A DNA stretch of 47,391 bases, from positions 1-47,391 of the IMG/VR virus record IMGVR_UViG_3300025732_000071; one strand, 5' to 3'. This DNA is from a virus. A program made the translations under genes and the position numbers. This document shows, piece by piece, positions 18,536 to 47,276 of this stretch. Position 1 is the stretch's first letter. Each line of letters starts with the position of its first letter. The notes beneath the pieces were generated by a model, which was given only the letters and a program-made list of their open reading frames with translations, was not told where the DNA came from and made no database searches.

Positions 18536-21500
18536 ATGCTGTTCGGTTGCTCGCCGTGCTGCGGCGGTTGCTCAAAATGCACCGACCGGTCGCACACGCG
18601 GCTCATAGCGTCGCTTGAGTACGGCGGCGATGGCGGCGAGACGATTGCCGCGTCCGAGGGGAACTACGGGGCCGTCACAACTGACTGTCAGCCGGCAGGC
18701 GGCGTGTCGCCAGTCATCGCTGTCACCTTGGACACCCCAGGCAGCGGCTACACCTCGGCCCCTACTCTTGCGCCGTCCAGTGGCACGGCGACGTTTACTG
18801 CCGAAGTGCGACAGTCGCTTCAGTCAGTAGAGGTCACGAGCGGAGGCTCTGGCTACACATCGCCCCCGACCGTGACGATCTCCGGCGGCGTGGCGGTGAC
18901 AGCGGCTGCGGCGACTGCTGTCGTTCGCGGTGGCGGAACGGCGGCTGTCGTCACCAACGGCGGCTCGCTTTACACTTCGCCGCCAACAGTTTCGGCCAGC
19001 GTCGGCTCCGGCCTAGAAGCAACCGCCGTCATGTCCGGGTATGTCTACGCCATCGAAATCGCCAGCGGCGGCAGCGGCTACACGTCAGCGCCGACAGTCT
19101 CTGTATCTGGCGGCGGCGGCTCTGGTTGTTCTGCAACGGCGTCCATCTCGCCGGATGGGGCAGTCACTGTGGTGACGGTGGTCATCGGTGGCTCTGGATA
19201 TACGTCGGCGCCAACCGTCACGATCTCCGGCGGCGGCGGCACAGGCGCCGCCGCAGTCGCCGTTCTCCGCTACCGCGTGGCCTCTGTGTCGATTCAATCT
19301 GGCGGGTCTGGCTATCCGCTCAATGCACCGCTCGCCTTTGAGGGTGGTGGCGGAAGCGGCGCGGCCGGCACGCTGACGGTTTCTGGCTCTGTCGCGGAAA
19401 TCGTTGTCACGAATCCTGGACTCTACAGAAATGCGAGCGGCGCGATCCCGATCGGGTGGCCGACCGTGGCAATCTCCGGCGGTGGTGGGGCTGGCGCTAC
19501 GGCAACGCCGCATTTCACGCCTGGCGGCGTTTACAGCGTCGGCGTCCAGTCTGGCGGCTCCTACTCGGCACCTCCTGCGCTGTCATTTTCAGGCGGCGGT
19601 GGCTCTGGGGCCGAGGCCACTGCCTACATCATGTGGCAGCAGTCTGGCGAGATCGGACTCAACTTCGTTGGCGGGGAGTGCTTCACTGCCATCGACTTCG
19701 GATTCTGCTCTGCAACAGAAAGCGAAGACTACCCGCTGGCACCGTGTATTGGCTGCGGAGGCTCGCTGAACCAGACAAACACCACACCGCCAACAACATA
19801 CAGATACGGCGAAAACAGGACGCTTTCAATCAGGGCGTCTACGAGCGGAGCGGCTGGAACTGGCTCGCCGGCGGGCCGGTCGTTGCCGGAAGACATACGC
19901 TCCGTCGACTACACGCCTGGGGGCGAGTATGTCTTCGTCTATCATGGGATGACATGGTCTGTCCCGAGCAGCACGGTCTACGACGAGAGGTTATGGGCCA
20001 GAAGGCTTTTCAGCAGAGTCCCGCCGACCGGAACGTGGGCAATCTGGCAACCAACACAGCCATCGTCGGCAGTCCAGCCAGTGCTAACGCCAGTCTGCAA
20101 GCAAACAGAAGACCTTGCAGGGCAGCCTGTGTGGTGGCTTGAGTCATTCACAATCACATCGCCTGGGAGCAACCTATACGTCCCGCAAGTATTTGATGAC
20201 GAGGCGTATGTTCAACCAGCAAACGGCAACCTCGGAACAGATGACACGTTCTTCGTCCCCGCTGACGTCGAATACACCTACTCGACTCCGGTTGCCACTT
20301 CATTTGATGGGGTTGCTGGATTCAGCCAACCGCCATCGCTGTCATTTGGATTTACTTCATCCGGTAATGGCAACTACACGCTGACGTCGGTTTCAGTAAA
20401 CTCGCCAGGTGGTGGCTCCACACTTGCGGACGGCGACTGGCCGTTTACGCTGTCGAACTTCTCTGTCGGCCATGTTGTAAATACGCCATCGTTTCTGGCA
20501 ACGATTGTAAATGGCGGCATTCAGTCGGCATCTGTGTCTTCGCCAGGGTTGGTGCGGGGTGGCGCCTCGCTTTCGTCTATCGCCGTTCAGGACGTTCCCG
20601 GCTATCCAGGCTATTCCTACTACCCACGCATCCTCATCGGCCGCAGCAACTACAAGACCACGGTCACTTACTCGCAGCCTACGGTCGTCGCCACGGCGCC
20701 ACCAGGGAACGCCGTGTTCTCTGTTTCGCTCGCTTCCGGCACCGACGTCAGTGGCAATCCGTTCTGGTATGTGTCTGCCGTGTCGATCATCAGCGGCGGC
20801 TCCGGCTACTACGAGCCTGTTGGGCTGGACTTCACGGCTACCGGCGCCGATGGTGTCGAGGCAATTCCAGCCATCGCAACAGCATCGCCCCCCAACCGCG
20901 AACAGCCAACGCTGTCGATCGGCGGCAGCGGCAACTTTACGCTTGCGTACTCGTATGACTCTGAAAATGACGTCTGGTCTATATCGTCCGTCACAATCGT
21001 GGACGGCGGGACGGGATACGAAGACGGTCAATATGCCGCGATCGTGCTTGGCGAAGATGATTCTGAAGTCCAGGCGGCGGAGATCGTGCTTCGCACGGGG
21101 CGCGTCGAGCCGACGATCACGTTGAGCGTTGCCGGCGGGAGCGGGGCCGTGCTGGAGGCGACCCTCCAGGAAACGTACCAGGAAGGGTACTGGATGGTAT
21201 CGTCGGTGACGATCATTGACGGAGGTTCTGGCTACGAGAATGGCGCCGAGGTGATCTTCTCGGGTGGCGACCAAGAGTATGACAACCCCTACGCGACGGT
21301 CACGACCGACGAAAGCGGCGCCATCGTCAGCGTCGACATCTTGTTTGGTGGCTATCTCTACAGCGACAATGGGATTGTTGAGGACGTCGAGATATACGGC
21401 GGTGGTTTGTTTTACAAGCAGCGCACGCACCTTGCCAGCGTGACGCTGATCTCTGGCGGAAAGTATTTCAATAGGACGATTACTGCCACCGTGGAGCCGC

Positions 21501-27727: not shown

Positions 27728-28035
27728 CGCTCTCTGACATCGACATTCCGCCGTCCGTAGAGTTCTCGCTGGCCCATGCGCTGGTGTTCACGCCAGAACT
27801 TGCCCAGCGGCTTGCGGAACTCCACGCCGAATACGGCAGGCCAGACTGCGTTGCCATCCCTCGCCAACTCACAGACGGCAGGCTCATGCTGTCGGCCACG
27901 CTGCTCCACGCCATTCAACCCGGCGGCTGGCTGCATGAGATGTGGGAAGCGGCCGACAAGGCCGTCCTGCTGCCTGCCGTTGAGGTGATCCCTTGGGACG
28001 AGGCGGTGGCGTTGCTGCCGGTGGAGCCTAACTGA
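27724..28035 (+). CDS. Small acidic protein after the fibre
   Basis: 103-residue acidic protein (LSDIDIPPSVEFSLAHALVF; ending VIPWDEAVALLPVEPN), unrecognised. Coupled to the fibre gene by ATGA, so it may be a fibre assembly chaperone, a common partner of receptor-binding proteins. It ends tail-to-tail with the integrase gene, overlapping it by 8 bases, with no terminator between them. Confidence 0.6.
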   Translation: MTLSDIDIPPSVEFSLAHALVFTPELAQRLAELHAEYGRPDCVAIPRQLTDGRLMLSATLLHAIQPGGWLHEMWEAADKAVLLPAVEVIPWDEAVALLPVEPN

Positions 28036-28882
28036 CTTTCGGCAGGACGTCGGGCGCGTTTGTGTCGGGCCGCACGATCCTCGGGTCTAGGTACTTCCTC
28101 GTGACGGCCGGACTCGAGTGACCCATCAGCGTCTGCGGGTCGCCGCCGGCTGCGGCGTAGTATGAGGCCGACGTCTTCCTCACGCGGTGGAACTTGCTCA
28201 TCCGGTCATTGGGTAGGCCCGCCCGCTCGCAGATGCGGCCGAGGCGGTGCCAGATGAGGGTGTAGCTGCGATCCCAGTCGAAGACGATCTTCCGCCTCGT
28301 CTTGGTCGCCATGATGGCCTCGTAGCACTCGGGAGGGATCGGCCGGTAGATGTCGGCCCGCTGCCCCTTCCGCCCCTCGGCGCGGAAGATCACCGCCTGC
28401 GGCTCGACGTCCGACCACTCGAGCGCCAGCAGGCCTCCGATCCGCTCGCCCGTCCAGTACGCGGCCTGGAGGATGGCGCGGAACCATTGGCTCGCCGGCA
28501 CGCCGCAGGTTTCGCCTTGCTCTCCATCGCAGGCGACGAGGAGTTTTCTGAACTCGTCGATCAGCCAGGCTCTAGGCACCCGCTCCGGCACGCGGATCGT
28601 GCGCATCTGCGGCCAAGGGCATAGACCACGGCGGGCGGCGAACTCTGCGAGCGCGTGCAACTGCGCCCTGTCCTTCGCCGCCGTCCCGACCGACCGCGTC
28701 TTCAGACGCCAGGCCAGGAACTTGGCGAGTTCGAGTTCGTCGAGGTGTTGCTCTACTGTCGGCTCGACGCCGCCAAGAAATTGACGATACTTGCCGATCG
28801 TCATCCCGTAGAGCCGAATGGTGCGGTCGCTGATCCCCTTCAACGGGGCGTAAAGATCGCCAAGTAGCTGGTGCAGGAACAA
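28028..28882 (-). CDS. int: Tyrosine recombinase / integrase
   Basis: 284-residue site-specific recombinase. The core-binding domain (1-100) precedes the catalytic domain with R147 (TGERIGGLL), K172 (GRKGQ), H232-x-x-R235 (FHRVRKTSAS), H255 (GHSS) and nucleophile Y264 (KYLDP): the set is complete. It would integrate and excise the genome at an att site not identified here. The start is TTG, 8 bases after GGAGGAG; no in-frame ATG fits better. It points against the virion genes and lies between structural and replication modules, arguing that the window shows a virion-type gene order. Confidence 0.92.
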   Translation of the reverse strand: MFLHQLLGDLYAPLKGISDRTIRLYGMTIGKYRQFLGGVEPTVEQHLDELELAKFLAWRLKTRSVGTAAKDRAQLHALAEFAARRGLCPWPQMRTIRVPERVPRAWLIDEFRKLLVACDGEQGETCGVPASQWFRAILQAAYWTGERIGGLLALEWSDVEPQAVIFRAEGRKGQRADIYRPIPPECYEAIMATKTRRKIVFDWDRSYTLIWHRLGRICERAGLPNDRMSKFHRVRKTSASYYAAAGGDPQTLMGHSSPAVTRKYLDPRIVRPDTNAPDVLPKVS

Positions 28883-37147: not shown

Positions 37148-37318
37148 ATGCTCGTCATCACGCGCCGCAAAGGCGAGAAGGTTCAGATCGGGCCTGACAT
37201 CGAGGTCATGGTCACGCGAGTCGCCGACGGCCAGGTGCGTCTGGCGATCAAGGCACCGGACACGACGAAGATCGTGCGGTCGGAGTTGCAGGCGCTCTCG
37301 GAGGCGGCGAAGCGATGA
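37148..37318 (+). CDS. csrA: CsrA-family RNA-binding regulator
   Basis: 56-residue CsrA/RsmA homologue. It opens MLVITRRKGEKVQIGPDIEV; the RNA-binding residues known from E. coli CsrA are kept or conservatively replaced (I4, R6, R7 and R44 in IVRSEL). The dimer would bind A(N)GGA motifs in hairpin loops and block or stabilise messages. At least six leaders in this window show such hairpins, including its own. ATG at 37148 is 9 bases from the loop SD. Overlaps the next gene by 4 bases. Confidence 0.93.
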   Translation: MLVITRRKGEKVQIGPDIEVMVTRVADGQVRLAIKAPDTTKIVRSELQALSEAAKR

Positions 37319-37641
37319 ACCGCAGGGAACTCATCCAGTGGCTCTCAGCAGGCACCGTCGGCATCGCCGCATCGGTGTCGCCTGAAGGCGGCGTTGACGC
37401 CGAGGCGGCCACTGCGGAGGTCAAGGAACTGCCGCAGGAGAAGGCGATTCTGGTGTTCTCGCTGCACTATCCGATTTCGCCGGATCGGCTGGAAGCACTG
37501 CAAGACAGCGCTCGCGAGTTCTTGGCTGAAAACTCCATCGACATTCCTATGGTCGTGCTGCCTCACGGCCTAAGTCTCAATGTCATCCGCTATCCCGTCG
37601 CTGCGTCGGCGCCGGTGAGTTCTGTGTCATCCAAGGAGTAG
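37315..37641 (+). CDS. Tat-signal exported protein 1
   Basis: 108-residue protein opening MNRRELIQWLSAGTVGIAAS: an RR pair at 3-4, a hydrophobic stretch and small residues, as in twin-arginine signal peptides. The mature part (about 85 residues) has EKAILVFSLHYPISPDRLEAL and a helix LQDSAREFLAENSI. It is flanked by csrA (ATGA overlap) and tatA (5 bases on), so gene order itself supports Tat export. No family recognised. The RR motif is a partial match (R-R-E-L-I in place of R-R-x-F-L-K). Confidence 0.7.
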   Translation: MNRRELIQWLSAGTVGIAASVSPEGGVDAEAATAEVKELPQEKAILVFSLHYPISPDRLEALQDSAREFLAENSIDIPMVVLPHGLSLNVIRYPVAASAPVSSVSSKE

Positions 37642-37646
37642 GAACC

Positions 37647-37835
37647 ATGTTCGGACTGGGAACGATCGAGATCGTCGTCATCGGTTGCATCGCTGTGATG
37701 CTGTTCGGCTCGCGGCTGCCCAAGTTGGCCCGCAGCGTCGGCCAGAGCGTCGTCGAGTTCAAGCGAGGCTTCCTGGAGGTCGAGCAGGAGTGCCGCGAGA
37801 TCGAGCGTCACATCGAATCGAAGGTGACGGCGTGA
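37647..37835 (+). CDS. tatA: TatA/E-type twin-arginine translocase subunit
   Basis: 62-residue protein matching TatA. Residues 1-20 (MFGLGTIEIVVIGCIAVMLF) are the short membrane helix, F20-G21 the hinge, and 22-42 an amphipathic helix (SRLPKLARSVGQSVVEFKRG) with the L-P-x-L-x-R-S-x-G pattern. The tail is short and charged. TatA lines the channel that exports folded RR-signal proteins; no TatB or TatC is in the window, so it would have to work with the host's. AAGGAG 8 bases upstream. A membrane-perturbing (lysis) role is an alternative. Confidence 0.88.
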   Translation: MFGLGTIEIVVIGCIAVMLFGSRLPKLARSVGQSVVEFKRGFLEVEQECREIERHIESKVTA

Positions 37836-40813: not shown

Positions 40814-41242
40814 ATGGATCGTCGAGGATTTCTTCAGAGGCTCGCGTCTGCCGCTGCCGCGATGGTGGCGGCGACGCAGTCCGGTGAAATCGCCGCATCG
40901 CTCGTCGCGGCGCCGAAGGTCATGGATGGCCTGGCGCCGCGACGGCTCTGCGAGGCGCAGCAGGCCGTCATTGACGTTCTCAAGGAGTGCAGGATCGTGT
41001 CCTACGAGAGGATCGACCGCGTCGCCGGATACCCGGAGCATCGCGTGACGTACCGCAGGGACAAAGGCCACGGCCTGACGGGCTACGTCGAGACGCTCGC
41101 CGACATCGGCGTTCCGAAGGCGATCACGGTGTCGTGCGTGTCGGAAGTCGACGTTTTTGATGCTTCGCACCTCGGCACGCCGTTCACGATTGAGCGAGAC
41201 AACCTGACATACGAAATCGAAGTGGTGTGGGTGGTGCCATGA
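40814..41242 (+). CDS. Tat-signal exported protein 2
   Basis: 142-residue protein with a clear twin-arginine signal: MDRRGFLQRLASAAAAMVAA, where R3-R4-G-F6-L7 closely fits the R-R-x-F-L consensus. The mature part has a helix (CEAQQAVIDVLKECRI) and beta strands (HRVTYRRDKGHGLTGYVETL; ITVSCVSEVDVFD). Unrecognised. With the RR protein at 37315 and tatA at 37647 it forms a set of export-related genes. Overlaps the next gene by 4 bases (ATGA). Confidence 0.76.
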   Translation: MDRRGFLQRLASAAAAMVAATQSGEIAASLVAAPKVMDGLAPRRLCEAQQAVIDVLKECRIVSYERIDRVAGYPEHRVTYRRDKGHGLTGYVETLADIGVPKAITVSCVSEVDVFDASHLGTPFTIERDNLTYEIEVVWVVP

Positions 41243-41466
41243 CGGAAAAAGAGCAGGAAGACATCGCCGCATTCGCGTTCTCGGCCATCGGCTTCGTGCT
41301 GTTCGGCGCGATCTTCCTGGTCGCCATTGCGCTGGCGACGAGGACGGCCTGGAACATGGTCATCCCCGAGGTCTTCGGCCTGCCGCAACTAACTCTGAAA
41401 AACGCCTTCGGCCTCGTCGGCCTGGGTGTCGTGTTTCGTTGCTTCCCGGTTCTCTCGAAGGAGTGA
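41239..41466 (+). CDS. Two-span membrane protein
   Basis: 75-residue protein with two likely membrane segments (about 13-35, FSAIGFVLFGAIFLVAIAL, and 50-66, NAFGLVGLGVVF). Coupled to the Tat-signal gene by ATGA. Small double-spanning proteins can be holins or immunity proteins; no endolysin is near. A lysogenic superinfection-exclusion role is equally possible. Confidence 0.55.
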   Translation: MTEKEQEDIAAFAFSAIGFVLFGAIFLVAIALATRTAWNMVIPEVFGLPQLTLKNAFGLVGLGVVFRCFPVLSKE

Positions 41467-41470
41467 GAAA

Positions 41471-41818
41471 ATGATCAAGGTCAAAGTCAACACGCTGGAA
41501 CTGTTCCGCCTTTGGAACACGAACATCCGCAACGACGAACTCGCCGACGCCCTCGGCGTCCCGCGCGGAACGCTCTGGTATCTGCGTCAGCGGTTCAAAT
41601 TGCCAGCCCGCGGCAAGGGAAGCCGCGTCCCCAGCGTGACGGAGCGCGACGCGCCGAGTCCAGAGGAGATCGAGCAGCGCTGCGCCGAGATTCGCGCCTC
41701 GTGGCCCGAAGGTGAGGAGGAGCGTCGTCGCGTTGGCCCCCGGCAGCGTCGGTGGAGCCTGCCCGCCTACGCCTTCGATGGACGCGGCTGCGCGTTCCAG
41801 CAAATCGCTGTGGACTAA
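41471..41818 (+). CDS. HTH DNA-binding protein
   Basis: 115-residue protein with a helix-turn-helix (about residues 18-40, NDELADALGVPRGTLWYLRQ) in an otherwise short basic context. ATG at 41471 follows AAGGAGTGAGAAA; an upstream frame from 41426 is spurious. Likely a transcription regulator of the downstream operon, whose promoter-like motif begins at its stop. C-terminus unrecognised. Confidence 0.65.
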   Translation: MIKVKVNTLELFRLWNTNIRNDELADALGVPRGTLWYLRQRFKLPARGKGSRVPSVTERDAPSPEEIEQRCAEIRASWPEGEEERRRVGPRQRRWSLPAYAFDGRGCAFQQIAVD

Positions 41819-41838
41819 TACGCTACAAGACCAGAAAC
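41819..41838 (+). promoter_or_regulatory. Putative phage promoter P8 (sugar operon)
   Basis: TACGCTAC, aagacc, AGAAAC, with TGGACTAA just upstream. First half matches well, second half poorly. It precedes the five-gene operon. Confidence 0.4.
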
Positions 41839-41845
41839 TACATGG

Positions 41846-42136
41846 ATGGCGCACCGGCCGCTCGAGAAGACGATCGTCGCGAAGGTCATCGCTGCCGCAA
41901 GGCAGCGGGGCTGGTGGGCGATGAAAACGCACGGCAGTGCGTTCAGCGTTGCGGGGCTGCCGGACATCCTTGTCATCAGGGAGGGCCGCGCGGCCTGGAT
42001 GGAAGCGAAGCGACCGGGCGAGAGTCCGACGAGGATTCAGGAGCACCGGATGCGAGAGTTGGCTGCGGCGGGCTGCCCGGTGACGGTCGTGACGAGCGCC
42101 GGTGACGCCATCGAGTTTCTTGAGGGTATCCAGTGA
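41846..42136 (+). CDS. VRR-NUC nuclease
   Basis: 96-residue stand-alone VRR-NUC (PD-(D/E)XK) nuclease. E7 in PLEKTI, GLPDILVI (D40) and WMEAKRPGE (E53-x-K55) give the catalytic set, and TRIQEHRMRELAAAGCPV is the usual helix. In phages it may process branched DNA or act in packaging. Its stop overlaps the aminotransferase GTG start. Confidence 0.85.
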   Translation: MAHRPLEKTIVAKVIAAARQRGWWAMKTHGSAFSVAGLPDILVIREGRAAWMEAKRPGESPTRIQEHRMRELAAAGCPVTVVTSAGDAIEFLEGIQ

Positions 42137-43233
42137 TCTACTGCGGGCAACCTGACATCGGCGTAGCGGAAGAAACCGCTGTGCTCGATGTGCTGCGCGG
42201 CGGTCAACTGACTCGTGGCCCCGTCGTGGCTGAGTTCGAGCGGCTCTTCGGCGGCATCAACGGCCTCCACATGCACGCCGTCTCGAGCGGCACGGCCGCT
42301 CTGCACCTGGCCCTCCTGGCGGCCGGCGTCGGTCGTGGCGACGAAGTCATCGTCCCAGCGACGACGTTTGTTGCCACGGTGAACGCGGTTCTCTACTGCG
42401 GCGCAAAGCCGGTGGTTGTGGACGTCGATCCGAGGTCGTGGACGATCGACCTGAACGAGATGGCGGCGGCCGTGACGGAGAAGACGAAGGCGATCATTCC
42501 CGTGCATCTGTACGGCGTGCCGGCGCCGTCGCTGAATGACTGGAAGGTCGACTACTACCGCTCGACGGGCCGGCGGATCGTCATCATCGAAGACTGCGCC
42601 GAAAGCATCGGGTGCCTCCGCAGCGGGTGGGCGCCGGCTGCGGACATGAACTGCTACTCGTTCTACGGGTCGAAGACGATCACGACCGGAGAGGGCGGTG
42701 CCGTCGGCACGCAGGAGAAGCTCTTCGCGGAGCGGATCGCCCACCTCGCCGGCCAGGCGATGACGGCGACCCGCTACGTCCACGACGCGCTGGGGTGGAA
42801 CTACCGGATGACCGAGGTGCAGGCCGCCATCGGCGTGGCGCAACTCTCCCGCCTGTCGGAGTTCATGGAGAAGCGCCGTCAGGTATTCGACTGGTACAAC
42901 TCCCGCCTGCCTGACCGTTTCCGCCGCCAAGAGGTCGCGAAGGACGACACGCACGGGTGCTGGGCGTTCGCCGTCGTCAAGGAATACGGACGACCGATGG
43001 ACGCCCGCCATGTCGAGCGACTGATGCGCGAGGACGGCATCGAGACGCGACCGATCTTTCCTCCCGTCTGTCACTTCCAGCATGTGCAGCGGGCTGGGAG
43101 AACAGGCCGTCGCATATACGCCGCCGATTCGTTGTACCGATACGGCCTCGTCCTGCCGACACACACGAGCCTGACCGAGAACGATGTGGAGAAAGTATGC
43201 GCAAGCCTCGTAAAAGCCGCGTCCTGTTCGTAG
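42133..43233 (+). CDS. DegT/DnrJ/EryC1 aminotransferase
   Basis: 366-residue PLP-dependent sugar aminotransferase. Catalytic lysine K181 is in SFYGSKTITTGEGG; VSSGTAALHLAL, EVIVPATTFVATVNAV and IIEDCAESIG are family marks. It would transfer an amino group to a keto-sugar nucleotide in making amino sugars for surface glycans or glycosylated products. GTG start overlaps the nuclease stop. Its last 37 bases overlap the ATP-grasp gene. Unusual in a phage. Confidence 0.92.
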   Translation: MIYCGQPDIGVAEETAVLDVLRGGQLTRGPVVAEFERLFGGINGLHMHAVSSGTAALHLALLAAGVGRGDEVIVPATTFVATVNAVLYCGAKPVVVDVDPRSWTIDLNEMAAAVTEKTKAIIPVHLYGVPAPSLNDWKVDYYRSTGRRIVIIEDCAESIGCLRSGWAPAADMNCYSFYGSKTITTGEGGAVGTQEKLFAERIAHLAGQAMTATRYVHDALGWNYRMTEVQAAIGVAQLSRLSEFMEKRRQVFDWYNSRLPDRFRRQEVAKDDTHGCWAFAVVKEYGRPMDARHVERLMREDGIETRPIFPPVCHFQHVQRAGRTGRRIYAADSLYRYGLVLPTHTSLTENDVEKVCASLVKAASCS

Positions 43234-44066
43234 GCGGTGGACGTCGGGTGTCGCTGGCGAATGAGTTCATCGCCAGGAACGCCGACGTCTACGGCTACGA
43301 GTCGAGCATCGACGTCCCTTTGGCCGACGTCGCCAAGGAGGTCGTCGAAGGCATGGACTTCGACGATCCCGAGTGCGGCCCCGACATCATCGAGTTCGCC
43401 GCTCGCCGGAAGATCACGCATATCGTCCCGCTCATGGACGAGGCCACGGTTGTGTGCGGCGACATGGAGCAGTGCATCGGCTCGCCGGCCGCCGTGGCGA
43501 TGCTCTGCCACGACAAGTTGCACTTCGCAAATTGGATGAAGGAGCACCACCCAGACGTCTACCCGGCCCCGCGGCTGACGCGGTATCCGAAGTTCGCGAA
43601 GCCCCGATTCGGCCACGGCTCCCGCGGGACGAAGGTGCTGCATCGCCCCGAGACGATCGAAATGTCGGCGTCGTGGGTGATCCAGGACTACCTCGACGGC
43701 GACGAGGTGTCGGTCGACCTCTTCCTGGGCGCCGGACAGTGCCGCGGCGCCGTGGCCCGCAGCCGCGACCGCGTCGAGGGTGGAGAAGTTATCGAGTCGA
43801 CGGTGCTCGCCCCCGAGGCGTCGGTGTCCTACCTGATCGACGCCGCGGCGGTGTGTGCGGACCTGGGGATCGTCGGGCCGGCGAACGTGCAGTTCAAAGG
43901 CGGCAAGATCATCGAGGTCAACCCGAGGTTCGGCGGCGGCAGCGTCCTGTCGATCGCCGCTGGCCTGCCGCTTGTGGCCCTGGCCCTCGGCCACAACGTT
44001 GACGGCCCTCCCTGGAAGATCGCGCCGCTGACGATGCGGCGGTATCACGCGGAGAGTTTCCGATGA
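43197..44066 (+). CDS. ATP-grasp ligase (CarB-like)
   Basis: 289-residue ATP-grasp enzyme. N-terminal Rossmann-like start RKSRVLFVGGGRRVSLANEF, then KPRFGHGSRGTKVL (ATP loop), VIQDYLDGDEVSVDLF and EVNPRFGGGS (metal ligands). Proteins of this group couple a carboxylate to an amine or thiol using ATP. ATG at 43197 lies inside the aminotransferase end, so the two are co-translated. With the aminotransferase, methyltransferase and phosphatase it may make a modified sugar or amino-acyl product. Confidence 0.87.
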   Translation: MRKPRKSRVLFVGGGRRVSLANEFIARNADVYGYESSIDVPLADVAKEVVEGMDFDDPECGPDIIEFAARRKITHIVPLMDEATVVCGDMEQCIGSPAAVAMLCHDKLHFANWMKEHHPDVYPAPRLTRYPKFAKPRFGHGSRGTKVLHRPETIEMSASWVIQDYLDGDEVSVDLFLGAGQCRGAVARSRDRVEGGEVIESTVLAPEASVSYLIDAAAVCADLGIVGPANVQFKGGKIIEVNPRFGGGSVLSIAAGLPLVALALGHNVDGPPWKIAPLTMRRYHAESFR

Positions 44067-44614
44067 GTGAATCGCTGATTGACGCCTACAAACTTGACTG
44101 CCTCGTGGCACTCCTCGAGTCGACGGACAAGCTCGACGGCGACATCGTCGAGGTCGGAGTCTACAAAGGTGGCAGCGCTCGAGCAATCGTCGACAACGCC
44201 GGACAGTCGAAGGTCTTCCTGTTCGACACCTTCACGGGAATGCCGAATCACGATCCGACGCTGGACGGAAGGTGGGGCATTGGCTCCTTCAGTGACACGA
44301 GCGCCGTGGCGGTCATGGATATGTTTGTCGGCGACAAGCGGGTGAGCGTTTACCCAGGCGTATTCCCGGCCGAGACGGGCGACGTTCTCGCCGGCCGCCG
44401 CCTGCGGTTCGTCCACCTGGACGTCGACAACTACGAGTCCTACGCCGCGTGCCTGGAGTTCCTCTACGAGCAAGTCGTCCCCGGCGGCATCATCGTGTTC
44501 GACGACTACGGCGAGGACTGCTGCCCCGGCGCGAAGGCGGCTGTTGACGAGTTCTTCATCGGCCACGCGCAGGTGGTGATCGAAGGCCCGGTGGTCTATG
44601 TGGTGAAGCCATGA
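44063..44614 (+). CDS. TylF/macrocin-type O-methyltransferase
   Basis: 183-residue SAM methyltransferase. GDIVEVGVYKGGSARAIV is the SAM loop, VFLFDTFTGMP the acidic second motif, and RLRFVHLDVDNYESYAACLE the TylF signature, followed by GGIIVFDDYG. Enzymes of this type methylate sugar hydroxyls in glycans and macrolides. Coupled by ATGA on both sides. Slightly short for the family (about 220-250), lacking part of the N-terminus. Confidence 0.88.
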   Translation: MSESLIDAYKLDCLVALLESTDKLDGDIVEVGVYKGGSARAIVDNAGQSKVFLFDTFTGMPNHDPTLDGRWGIGSFSDTSAVAVMDMFVGDKRVSVYPGVFPAETGDVLAGRRLRFVHLDVDNYESYAACLEFLYEQVVPGGIIVFDDYGEDCCPGAKAAVDEFFIGHAQVVIEGPVVYVVKP

Positions 44615-44910
44615 AGACGGCGGCCATCGACATGGACGGCGTGATCTGCGAGGAGCGGCCGACGTTCGAGCGGTCGCTGGCGAAGGCGTTGCCAGGCTCC
44701 CGCGAGATGCTCGAGAGCCTGCGAACGGCCGGCTACCGGATCATCATCCACACAGCCAGATCGTGGTCGGAGTTGGCGATGACTGAACAGTGGCTGTTTG
44801 AACGCAGCATCCCATACGACCAGTTGGTGATGGGCAAGCCGGTCGCGGACATCGTCGTGGACGATCGGGCGGTTGCGAGCCTGGAGGAGGCTGTCGATGT
44901 GGTCGACTGA
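44611..44910 (+). CDS. HAD-like phosphatase
   Basis: 99-residue HAD protein. IDMDGVIC gives the nucleophile D7 and acid D9, IIHTARSW the second motif (T), and VADIVVDDRA the acidic end with MGKPVAD before it. This minimal form without a cap would dephosphorylate a small molecule such as a sugar phosphate. It ends the operon, and its stop TGA shares a base with the first attC-like site. Confidence 0.82.
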   Translation: MKTAAIDMDGVICEERPTFERSLAKALPGSREMLESLRTAGYRIIIHTARSWSELAMTEQWLFERSIPYDQLVMGKPVADIVVDDRAVASLEEAVDVVD

Positions 44911-44956
44911 ACACGCATGATAAGCGGCGGCTTGCCGTCCGCTTCATGCGCTGGTT
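44910..44956 (+). repeat. attC-like site a (short)
   Basis: AACACGCATGA-TAAGCGG ... CCGCTTCATGCG-CTGGTT: imperfect inverted repeat bounded by AAC and GTT, with a 10-base centre CGGCTTGCCG plus T. As in all seven sites, the right arm has one extra unpaired base (CATGA against TCATG). It follows the HAD gene and is first in the array. Confidence 0.7.
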
Positions 44957-44988
44957 ATGGCTGCGGCGAGACAACAGGAGAGATAGCG

Positions 44989-45183
44989 ATGAGATGGAAG
45001 ATGATCGACAGGCCAGCCGAAGGGAACACAATCAGCCAGTGGTTCGCGTTTTGGCCCATTACGGTCGGCGGCGAAACCCGGTGGCTGGAGTGGGTCGCGG
45101 TTGAATACCGAACGATCATCGCCTACGGCAAAGGCACCGGCGACGGGAAGATTCACAAGCACGCGGTGCGGTTCATTTCATAG
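44989..45183 (+). CDS. Cassette 1: small Trp-rich protein
   Basis: 64-residue protein MRWKMIDRPAEGNTISQW..., Trp-rich and compact, perhaps one domain (WPITVGGETRWLEWVAVEY). ATG at 44989 is 8 bases from AGGAG. It lies between sites a and b, with its stop just before site b, the standard cassette layout. Function unknown. Confidence 0.65.
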   Translation: MRWKMIDRPAEGNTISQWFAFWPITVGGETRWLEWVAVEYRTIIAYGKGTGDGKIHKHAVRFIS

Positions 45184-45187
45184 CCAT

Positions 45188-45228
45188 AACGCCAGCGATC
45201 AGCGGCTCGTCCGCTGCATCGCGTGGTT
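45188..45228 (+). repeat. attC-like site b (short)
   Basis: AACGCCAGCGAT-CAGCGG ... CCGCTGCATCGCGTGGTT. The right arm read back is GCGATGCAGCGG, so one G-C is unpaired, as in the other sites. Only 41 bases, the shortest of the seven. Confidence 0.68.
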
Positions 45229-45281
45229 CTGTGGCGAATCGAACGTATTGGAAAACCAACGGAAAGTGACGGATTACGAAT

Positions 45282-45500
45282 ATGAGCGGGGAGTGGATTC
45301 CGGTGACGGAGCGTCTGCCAGAAGTTGACGACGTATGCCTTTGTTTTGCAGAAGGGCAATCTCGCCCGTTTCTTGCTTCCTTTTCAGAGGACGGGTGGCA
45401 ATCGTTGGACGTGTACGACTACGACCGAGACGGCGAGTGTACGGCAGAAAATCCGACACACTGGATGCCGCTCCCTGCCCCGCCAACGGACGCCAAGTAG
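45282..45500 (+). CDS. Cassette 2: DUF551 protein
   Basis: 72-residue DUF551-type protein: opens MSGEWIPVTERLPEVDDVCL and ends THWMPLPAPPTDAK, both signatures of DUF551. The middle is acidic and aromatic. Function of the family is not established; members are widespread in phages. It is one of three in this array. ATG at 45282 has only a weak ribosome site (GGAAAG). Confidence 0.8.
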   Translation: MSGEWIPVTERLPEVDDVCLCFAEGQSRPFLASFSEDGWQSLDVYDYDRDGECTAENPTHWMPLPAPPTDAK

Positions 45501-45506
45501 ACACAG

Positions 45507-45588
45507 AACGCCAAGGATCAGGAGCGGCGAGACATGAACACTGACAACATCAACCGGGGCGCCGAGCCGGCTCCTGCATCCGCTGGTT
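45507..45588 (+). repeat. attC-like site c (long, with gene start)
   Basis: Left arm AACGCCAAGGATCAGGAGC (45507-45525), right arm GCTCCTGCATCCGCTGGTT (45570-45588), 44-base centre. The AGGAG of the left arm is also the ribosome site of cassette 3, and its ATG (45534) lies in the centre. Confidence 0.7.
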
Positions 45589-45866
45589 CTCGGGCGGCGC
45601 TGGTTGTGCTGTGGGTCGCAGTGTCACTGCCGCTCGTCATCTATCCCGGCGTCCTCATGGCTGGCATCATGGGCCTTGCGGGTTATGTGCGAGAAGGGAC
45701 GCCATTTGTAAAGGTGGCGGTGTGTAAGGCGTTTTACTGGGCGACGTTGCTATACCCGCTGGCGTGGGTTGCGTCGCCAAGGACGCTTCGCGGGGCGTTG
45801 TATTTGACGGCGTACTTGGCGGCTTGCGCCGCATTGTTCGGTGTGGCGGTAATGCTGGGAGACTGA
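45534..45866 (+). CDS. Cassette 3: three-span membrane protein
   Basis: 110-residue membrane protein with segments at about 21-45, 63-80 and 88-108. The first 20 residues (MNTDNINRGAEPAPASAGS) are encoded inside the attC-like site; PASAGS is the reading of its right arm. Function unknown; small membrane proteins are frequent integron cassettes. Confidence 0.72.
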   Translation: MNTDNINRGAEPAPASAGSRAALVVLWVAVSLPLVIYPGVLMAGIMGLAGYVREGTPFVKVAVCKAFYWATLLYPLAWVASPRTLRGALYLTAYLAACAALFGVAVMLGD

Positions 45867-45867
45867 G

Positions 45868-45915
45868 AACACGCAGGATAAGCGGCGGCTCCGCCGTCCG
45901 CTTCATCCGCTGGTT
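45868..45915 (+). repeat. attC-like site d (short)
   Basis: AACACGCAGGAT-AAGCGG ... CCGCTTCATCCGCTGGTT, centre CGGCTCCGCCGT self-complementary. Follows the cassette 3 stop by one base. One unpaired base in the right arm (GGATGAAGCGG when read back). Confidence 0.72.
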
Positions 45916-45939
45916 CTGTGAGCGTAGAGGAGAAGCGAG

Positions 45940-46257
45940 ATGTATTGCCCGATCTGCGACCAGAAGCCGATGAACTGCGACTGCACGCCAGAGGAGCGGC
46001 GGATGCACTCCGAGATCGAAGACTTGGAGGAGCAGATTCCGCAATGGATTCCAGTGACCGAGAGGATGCCGGATCAAGGCGTGCGGGTGCTATTCTTCGT
46101 CAATCGCAAAAACACCAACTACGCTGCCGCATACGCTGGCGAATACATCAAGGTATTTGACACTTGGGCTTATGACTTGGCGAACGAAAAAGGGTGGTCC
46201 AGCGCGTTCGTCACGCACTGGATGCCGCTTCCGGCACCGCCGAGCGAAGGCAAGTAG
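45940..46257 (+). CDS. Cassette 4: Zn-ribbon plus DUF551
   Basis: 105-residue fusion. The first 20 residues (MYCPICDQKPMNCDCTPEE) have C-x2-C and C-x-C for zinc, then a short helix, then a DUF551 part (WIPVTERMPDQGVRVLFFV ... THWMPLPAPPSEGK). The extra zinc head is absent from the other two DUF551 cassettes. AGGAG before the ATG. Function unknown. Confidence 0.78.
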   Translation: MYCPICDQKPMNCDCTPEERRMHSEIEDLEEQIPQWIPVTERMPDQGVRVLFFVNRKNTNYAAAYAGEYIKVFDTWAYDLANEKGWSSAFVTHWMPLPAPPSEGK

Positions 46258-46263
46258 CCGCAG

Positions 46264-46344
46264 AACGCACAGGATCAGCGGCAGCGATGAAAGGACTCCC
46301 CATGCCTAAAGACGATGCAACGCTGTCCGCTGCATCCGTTGGTT
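46264..46344 (+). repeat. attC-like site e (long, with gene start)
   Basis: Left arm AACGCACAGGATCAGCGG (46264-46281), right arm CCGCTGCATCCGTTGGTT (46327-46344), 45-base centre containing the start of cassette 5. Single unpaired base as in the other sites. Confidence 0.7.
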
Positions 46345-46937
46345 ATCCCGCCTACGGCGTACCGTCGCTTCTTGATTGCAAGACCAATGCAGAGTTGATT
46401 GCGGCTGCCGATTCGCTGGGCTATATCGGCAACAGGGTTTTGGATTTGTCTTACGGGCATGGAGAGTTTTGGACGCAGAAGCGGCCGGCAACGCTCGTCA
46501 CGAACGACCTCAATCCGACAAAAGGCGACTACCATCACGACGTTTCTGGATCGCCGCCGAATGAGTGGCTCGATTCATTCGATACGGTTGTGTGGGACGG
46601 GCCATATCGACTCAACGGCACACCCAATCGCGGAGTCTTTGACGAGAAGTTTGGGACTGACGATCCACAGAGGCTTCGGGACAGGCTCAATCTTTTGTTG
46701 CTTGGAGTGGTGTTCGCATCGCGGTGTGTCGCCAACGGAGGCCACGTTCTCGTCAAATGCCAGGATCAAGTCGCAGCGGGCCGCAAGCAGCAGCAGCGGA
46801 GAATGATTCAGGACACTGGTGAACTGTTTGGGTTGAGGTGGATTGACGAACTGCACATGCGGGTGGCCGTCCGCAAGCAACGGTCGCAAAAACTGTCACG
46901 GTCGAACTTTAGTACGCTGGTCGTTTTCAAGGGATAA
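46302..46937 (+). CDS. Cassette 5: methyltransferase-like protein
   Basis: 211-residue protein with class I methyltransferase features: NRVLDLSYGHGEFW (motif I), TLVTNDLNP (acidic end of strand 2) and FDTVVWDGPYRL, a D-G-P-Y variant of the D/N-P-P-Y motif IV. Then VFASRCVANGGHVLVKCQDQ. Probably a DNA or small-molecule methylase, possibly degenerate. ATG 46302 has AAAGGA 6 bases upstream, better than ATG 46287. The first dozen residues (MPKDDATLSAASVGY) come from the attC-like site. Base use is visibly less GC-rich than in the phage core. Confidence 0.68.
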   Translation: MPKDDATLSAASVGYPAYGVPSLLDCKTNAELIAAADSLGYIGNRVLDLSYGHGEFWTQKRPATLVTNDLNPTKGDYHHDVSGSPPNEWLDSFDTVVWDGPYRLNGTPNRGVFDEKFGTDDPQRLRDRLNLLLLGVVFASRCVANGGHVLVKCQDQVAAGRKQQQRRMIQDTGELFGLRWIDELHMRVAVRKQRSQKLSRSNFSTLVVFKG

Positions 46938-47017
46938 CACGCAGGATCAGGAGCATCGCATGACAGACGAAACTACACCGCAGGACGACGCAGCGATGTC
47001 TCCTGCATCGACTGGTT
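46936..47017 (+). repeat. attC-like site f (long, with gene start)
   Basis: Left arm AACACGCAGGATCAGGAG (46936-46953), right arm CTCCTGCATCGACTGGTT (47000-47017), 46-base centre. The stop of cassette 5 overlaps its AAC. AGGAG of the left arm serves cassette 6, whose ATG (46960) lies 6 bases on. Confidence 0.7.
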
Positions 47018-47223
47018 CGCTGGCGTGGACTCCGGTGGAGGAACGCCTGCCGGACGATGGAGAAGAGGTTCTCGCGTACGCCGACGGCAGGCGATGCAAC
47101 GCTGAGTTTTGGCGGAGCGAATGGTGGCACGCATGTCAGGGTTTTGAGAAACGAGGGGGCCGGATGCTGAAAAGGGTTTCGCATTGGATGCCACTCCCTG
47201 CCCCGCCAACGGACGCCAAGTAG
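46960..47223 (+). CDS. Cassette 6: DUF551 protein
   Basis: 87-residue DUF551 protein (WTPVEERLPDDGEEVLAYAD ... VSHWMPLPAPPTDAK). The first 20 residues (MTDETTPQDDAAMSPASTGS) are encoded by the attC-like site; SPASTGS is the right arm. The ending PLPAPPTDAK is identical to cassette 2 although the middles differ strongly. AGGAG start site within the repeat. Confidence 0.78.
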   Translation: MTDETTPQDDAAMSPASTGSLAWTPVEERLPDDGEEVLAYADGRRCNAEFWRSEWWHACQGFEKRGGRMLKRVSHWMPLPAPPTDAK

Positions 47224-47229
47224 CCAGCG

Positions 47230-47276
47230 AACACGCCGGATAAGCGGCGGCTTGCCGTCCGCTTCATCCGCTGGTT
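47230..47276 (+). repeat. attC-like site g (short)
   Basis: AACACGCCGGAT-AAGCGG ... CCGCTTCATCCGCTGGTT, centre CGGCTTGCCGT as in site a. It is the last site seen; 115 bases remain after it. Confidence 0.72.

Follow-up and report, generated by a model that had tools for sequence, protein, structure and literature searches.

The right end of the virus record IMGVR_UViG_3300025732_000071 of IMG/VR (47,391 bases; this whole stretch is hereafter called the window) carries seven hairpins interspersed with small open reading frames (ORFs). With a probability that we put at about 0.8, the region would be an integron-type cassette cluster without an integrase of its own, carried by a tailed phage, in which each cassette consists of an attC site followed by a gene and is moved by a host integron integrase (IntI) acting in trans. 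Seven sites and no match to the IntI model TIGR02249 were found in the window, as in CALINs (clusters of at least two attC sites with no intI gene close by), and the intI gene and attI site of a complete integron were absent from it. A preliminary description of the window had proposed an attC-type array without a nearby integron integrase, and in this respect it is upheld.

The seven AAC...GTT hairpins, which lie between 44910 and 47276 in a single orientation at the places where the preliminary description had put its inverted repeats, were recovered by a structure-aware scan (AAC, a spacer, GAT, a six-base stem, a loop, the complementary stem with one inserted base, CAT, a spacer and TGGTT). 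The same scan detected no further site on either strand of the window, nor any in reversed-sequence controls, and a tighter pattern matched the window four times compared with no match in 100 dinucleotide shuffles. A search of the array region against Rfam gave a single chance match and none that was relevant.

A gapped pattern made from the short sites of the window matched at least 119 contig stretches of IMG/VR; the results on viral sites given here come from 118 loci among the matches listed (1.09 Mb). The structure-aware scan found at least 259 sites in these 118 loci, compared with none in reversed controls. Viral sites cluster at lengths of 40-43, 47-48 and 79-83 nucleotides (nt) and are confined to one strand per locus; the sole exception is L031, a locus with sites on both strands. 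The contigs are metagenomic and mostly incomplete, and, because the search pattern was derived from this window, related site types with other stems were missed. In 257 Gb of bacterial and archaeal genomes, the gapped pattern matched eight stretches only, of which three (L123, L125 and L126) look genuine; all three belong to Planctomycetota. No match to the window array was obtained in a DNA search of 50,697 phage records of INPHARED. A single-site pattern was also present in 7 of 30 phage contigs that had not been picked for having an array.

Several features identify these hairpins. The AAC and GTT ends (R boxes) are present at all seven window sites and invariant in the alignment of viral sites, the finder itself demanding AAC and GTT. 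The stem occurs in compensatory versions (CAGCGG/CCGCTG, AAGCGG/CCGCTT, CTGCGG/CCGCAG and CAGGAG/CTCCTG): six pairs were changed on both sides, 96.2% of the cells were paired, and none of 500 shuffles gave as high a value. This structure was written from the same sites, so that slid controls favour it by construction. The hairpins have an unpaired central spacer and, on one arm, two extrahelical bases 6 nt apart, where the preliminary description had counted one extra base per right arm; the aadA1 attC of plasmid R100 likewise has two extrahelical bases spaced by 6 nt. On the folding strand these bases are T and C (T-N6-C), a class that is excised well by several IntIs: in published excision tests six was the best spacing, and a C as the second base was even an advantage with several integrases (PMC3053210). 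Judged by these sequence features, the viral hairpins are attC-type sites.

The ends of the intervals between sites carry the signature of circularisation at the R box: in 134 viral intervals, the bases that follow GTT were compared with the reverse complement of the bases that precede the next AAC. Outside GTT and AAC, the start and the end of an interval matched with frequencies of 0.93, 0.97, 0.84, 0.77 and 0.73 at the first five positions, then 0.28. The mean matching run was 4.28, versus 1.77 (sd 0.12) for permuted intervals, and the left and right outer bases of a single array site did not match (mean run 1.81). For window cassettes 1-6, the R-box ends match over 6 (GTT followed by ATGGCT), 5, 3, 3, 5 and 7 nt, respectively. 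The 5-nt match of interval ends is the trace that excision and insertion at R boxes should leave if cassettes circularise.

The interval end match alone cannot assign a site to a gene; exchange between phages can. When two sites shared only the gene on their right, site identity was 0.85 (33 families from 56 contigs, the families being not fully independent), compared with 0.59 for permuted pairs (maximum 0.67; none of 500 permutations as high). When they shared only the gene on their left, identity was 0.593, versus 0.590 after permutation. Site identity therefore tracks the right gene and not the left one, and the cassette is composed of a site and the gene that follows it. The preliminary description, in which each site closed the ORF on its left, had this relation the wrong way round. 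Classically, attC stands at the 3' end of the gene, whereas here it stands at the 5' end. The arm that carries the extrahelical bases agrees with the reversed polarity: in aadA1 of R100 they are in the arm beside the gene that the site closes, and in the viral sites they are in the opposite arm. Of the viral intervals, 64 have an ORF that is clearly longer on one of the two strands, and 59 of these run in the reversed direction. In the Planctomycetota integrons that have intI, Pla86 among them, the majority of clear cassette ORFs are opposite to the sites, which is the canonical arrangement.

Translation signals are built into the sites of the long class. In 77 of 100 unique long sites the loop contains an ATG whose frame stays open through the right arm and for at least 75 nt more (control frames +1 and +2 were open in 4% and 13%, respectively), and 70 of these 77 have the same phase across the right box. 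A Shine-Dalgarno-like motif lies 5-16 nt upstream of the loop ATG in 69 of the 77, versus 23 after shuffling. The AGGAG/CTCCT version of the stem, which retains pairing and mostly sets the Shine-Dalgarno 6 or 9 nt before the ATG, is carried by 33 of 100 long sites and by just 1 of 134 short ones (p 4e-13). At the other end of the cassette, the commonest stop codon positions relative to the next AAC are -4, -9 and -1; the GTTCTCA box reads TGAGAAC on the gene strand and is therefore able to supply a stop. We infer that the hairpin would be opened by the ribosome that terminates the previous gene, through translational coupling. About one-fifth of the sites of approximately 82 nt have no open loop ATG (for example L015:5860-5941, L018:12651-12732 and L035:2699-2779), and several long sites without an open ATG have in common another loop of equal length (GCGACCGCTGACGAAACTACA...).

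No IntI (TIGR02249 above its cut-off) was found in the approximately 118 viral records searched, the window included. An intI gene is present in L125, a contig of a Planctomycetaceae metagenome-assembled genome (MAG) that carries two viral-type sites, a DUF551 cassette, a presumed attI and intI, followed by rhodanese and ROK genes of chromosomal type. The end of this DUF551 cassette, CACAGAAC, abuts non-attC sequence, the presumed attI, next to intI. Among solved structures, the one closest to the L125 IntI (377 aa; TIGR02249 443 bits for a cut-off of 265, E 5e-133) is that of the integron integrase 2A3V (E 4e-84). A cassette beside attI is normally the latest inserted, and the position of the DUF551 cassette suggests that the host integrase probably accepts the viral site type. 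IntI homologues were present in 69 of 392 Planctomycetota genomes sampled. The absence of a viral IntI, the L125 integron and the presence of IntI in Planctomycetota favour mobilisation in trans by a host IntI, a step that, taken by itself, we consider likely.

The following scheme is proposed. Each cassette would have its hairpin at the 5' end of its gene, the reverse of the classical gene-attC order; the gene-carrying strand would be the folding ('bottom') strand of attC, with T-N6-C, and the left AAC box would be the place of the crossover. In long sites the loop would supply the Shine-Dalgarno and the ATG, translation would run through the right arm, and the stop codon would usually be in, or just before, the R box of the next site. 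Having its own translation start and stop, a cassette could be expressed from any phage transcript that runs into the array, presumably initiated at phage promoters. A planctomycete host that has an integron would provide, in trans, the IntI for excision and insertion.

All sites and cassettes of the window are on the plus strand. Site a (44910-44956, 47 nt, stem AAGCGG/CCGCTT, T-N6-C extrahelical bases) forms the 5' end of cassette 1 (44910-45187), whose ORF (44989-45183, 64 aa) has no Pfam match. Site b (45188-45228, 41 nt) belongs to cassette 2 (45188-45506) with a DUF551 ORF (45282-45500), and site d (45868-45915, 48 nt) to cassette 4 (45868-46263), which also encodes a DUF551 protein (45940-46257). 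Sites c, e and f are the long ones (about 82 nt), and their loops hold the start codon of the following ORF. Site c (45507-45588, 82 nt, AGGAG/CTCCT stem variant, loop ATG at 45534) opens cassette 3 (45507-45867; ORF 45534-45866, 110 aa). Site e (46264-46344, 81 nt, loop ATG at 46287) opens cassette 5 (46264-46935), whose product resembles DNA methyltransferases (ORF 46287-46937, 216 aa, PHROG 24333, E 1.3e-7). Site f (46936-47017, 82 nt, AGGAG in the stem, loop ATG at 46960) opens cassette 6 (46936-47229), with the third DUF551 ORF (46960-47223). Site g (47230-47276, 47 nt) would have its own gene beyond the window end. The assignment of three cassette ORFs to DUF551 in the preliminary description was confirmed (E 2e-14 to 3e-12). 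In the viral loci as a whole, 209 of 249 cassette ORFs are distinct; DUF551 accounts for 21 of 130 distinct cassette proteins and C5-methylases for two, whereas Dam, Mom, HNH and MazG are represented by one each.

Related phages share the flank of the array and differ in the cassettes. The flank conserved before the array (44063-44910) encodes a TylF-like methyltransferase (44063-44614, plus strand) and an HAD-like protein (44611-44910, plus strand), and is common to sister phages in which other genes follow. In L209, a stretch that matches window positions 41356-44891 at 77% is followed by at least ten sites, and its DNA matches to the window array are only stretches of about 100 bases at sites; in L206-L208 the flank is conserved at about 91% up to 44899, with other genes beyond. 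Variation of cassettes between related phages had been set as a test in the preliminary description, and a phage with the same flanking genes does have a different cassette set.

The array belongs to a phage genome, as first described. The HK97-type head genes for the terminase large subunit (E 5e-137), portal (E 5e-95), head maturation protease and major capsid protein are on the same contig (597-6654, plus strand). A second contig, G020, is the same phage: it is 99.99-100% identical to the window across the phage-array border (window 2-46001, where compared) and reaches 11.9 kb past the left end of the window. At the other end of G020 (L146, which is G020:C1:37936-57935; minus strand, 19796-19876), a long attC-type site is fused in frame to a gene resembling N4/N6-type DNA methyltransferases. 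Given this site, the genome may be circularly permuted, with the array lying across its junction. The carrier is a tailed phage that probably infects Planctomycetota, to judge from site similarity and one MAG. Beside the array, genes for a DegT/DnrJ aminotransferase, the TylF-like methyltransferase and the HAD-like phosphatase stand in a row (42133-44910) and are possible sugar or surface modification genes. The window also encodes a TatA/B/E-like protein (PF02416, E 7e-10), and ORFs near its gene start with twin-arginine-like signals (MNRRELIQWL..., MDRRGFLQRL...), which is unusual for a phage; the positions concerned, for the gene and these ORFs together, are 37647-37835, 37315-37641 and 40814-41242.

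Several observations weigh against the interpretation that we favour. The GTTRRRY consensus is found in only about 1% of viral sites; the most frequent outer boxes in 235 sites were GTTCTCA (80), GTTCTGT (52) and GTTATGC (17), and the preliminary description was right that the outer box is non-canonical. GTTRRRY is a consensus and not an invariant sequence, and the GTT/AAC core is retained in viral sites. In a minority of the families that share the right gene, the same gene is preceded by a different site class, which indicates that some exchange also occurs at the right end or by homologous recombination. (In L062, a long site precedes an interval that in the window and in L084 follows a short site, site b in the window; right-box exchange or homologous recombination would produce this.) Only one host integron with the exact viral site type was found, and in a MAG (L125). 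Finally, many array phages carry an Xer/Int-like recombinase, for which these sites are conceivable substrates.

Other explanations were weighed. An ordinary integron array, in which attC closes the left gene and only the R box has diverged, would account for stop codons near the following site (median 1 nt), as in classical cassettes. It is highly improbable and was rejected by the co-travel test described above, in which site identity follows the right gene; moreover, reading frames begin within sites and continue through the right arm, the extrahelical bases are in the arm opposite to that of the canonical aadA1 site, and the genes of Planctomycetota integrons run opposite to the sites. Alternatively, the arrays could be inert relics of a host integron taken up by illegitimate recombination, their variation arising by homologous recombination at the repeated hairpins. 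Similar hairpins could act as recombination hot spots, and a few sites do change class before the same gene. We regard this origin as quite unlikely, since the 5-nt R-box match within cassettes, absent between the arms of one site, requires site-specific exchange at the box, and since cassettes are very diverse while the sites are intact.

Movement of the cassettes by the phage's own tyrosine recombinase, which would then be a virus-encoded attC recombinase, is an unlikely alternative to a host IntI, albeit one with some observations in its favour. The only tyrosine recombinase found in the window (28031-28882, minus strand) has relatives in many array phages: of the 50 array contigs that reach 20 kb or more, 32 have a PF00589 recombinase, and most of those extracted form one family related to the window protein (33-94% identity to it). 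However, this family is Xer/lambda-Int-like by sequence and fold and not IntI, the gene is 16 kb from the array, and the enzyme, although frequent in array phages, is not specific to them: the site pattern was absent from 23 of 37 recombinase contigs searched, and the contigs not chosen for an array had it in only 7 of 30 cases. The frequent presence of the recombinase where no site is detected fits a role in lysogeny or a core recombinase of the phage group. The family comprises 71 loci from array-bearing and array-free phage contigs, in a scan made with a close subset because the full alignment was too divergent. The position of the array at the end of a linear contig could also reflect a host integron contig misjoined to a phage by assembly or binning. 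Such an artefact is barely credible, and misassembly was rejected on the evidence of G020, which matches the window across the border and whose other end starts with a site and methyltransferase cassette, and of the many related viral contigs (with a phrog_9-type terminase match in 18 of the 50 long ones); the exact site pattern has just eight matches in the genome collection.

Phage-borne attC clusters as such were already published: CALINs carrying small genes, including methyltransferases, occur in phages, and IntI1 recombines several of their sites (Qi et al., 2023; PMC9892861). In that study, 17 CALINs were found in 10,705 NCBI phage genomes and integron components were reported to be infrequent in phages; the text names no Planctomycetes and mentions no start codons in attC. 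Compared with those CALINs, arrays of the window type are reversed and have R boxes of the form GTTCTSN or GTTATGN. In our reading, the two best site candidates of Tetrasphaera phage TJE1 (HQ225832) are canonical gene-attC units, with extrahelical bases in the gene-side arm. The sedentary chromosomal integrons of Planctomycetota (Pla86, CP036296; Planctomycetes attC model, PMC8352920) possess IntI and have sites with the same stem, GATCAGCGG...CCGCTGCATC, and the same extrahelical positions, but their R boxes are GTTRRRY-like and their clear genes run gene-to-attC outward from attI, opposite to the viral cassettes. In Treponema-type integrons, where intI is transcribed toward attI, the array adjoins the 3' end of intI, an arrangement shared by L125 and Pla86; Treponema cassette genes are co-directional with intI (PMC3607928), whereas genes of L125 and of the viral arrays are inverted relative to attC. 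ORF-11 of class 1 attI1 provides another recombination site with a Shine-Dalgarno and an ATG, as in viral sites, but it lies in attI and aids the first cassette only (reviewed in PMC8876359), whereas each viral attC provides the start for the gene of its own cassette. In the open-access literature, which as the only literature covered gives weak evidence on this point, we found no report of attC placed as a rule 5' of the gene, of a Shine-Dalgarno and ATG within attC, or of such arrays being common in planctomycete-type phages. Reversed, self-starting cassettes therefore appear to be new.

We lean slightly towards a more specific view, in which these cassettes form a largely virus-restricted class whose attC, turned round to stand 5' of the gene, has been rebuilt as a translation start, with the stop at or in the R box. 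In such an attC the Shine-Dalgarno would lie in the stem or the loop and the ATG in the loop, and the reading phase across the right arm would be fixed. They would constitute a common pool in planctomycete phages that borrows the host IntI during infection, and occasional right-box exchange would swap start modules in frame. One site type is found on more than a hundred virus contigs, to be compared with the infrequent integron components of the earlier phage report. Reversed polarity together with a built-in start would be a different answer to the problem of cassette expression, one in which the integron promoter is not needed. These results suggest that phages exploit a recombination system of their hosts to reassort accessory genes of their own, among them those for methyltransferases, Mom, HNH, MazG and DUF551 proteins.

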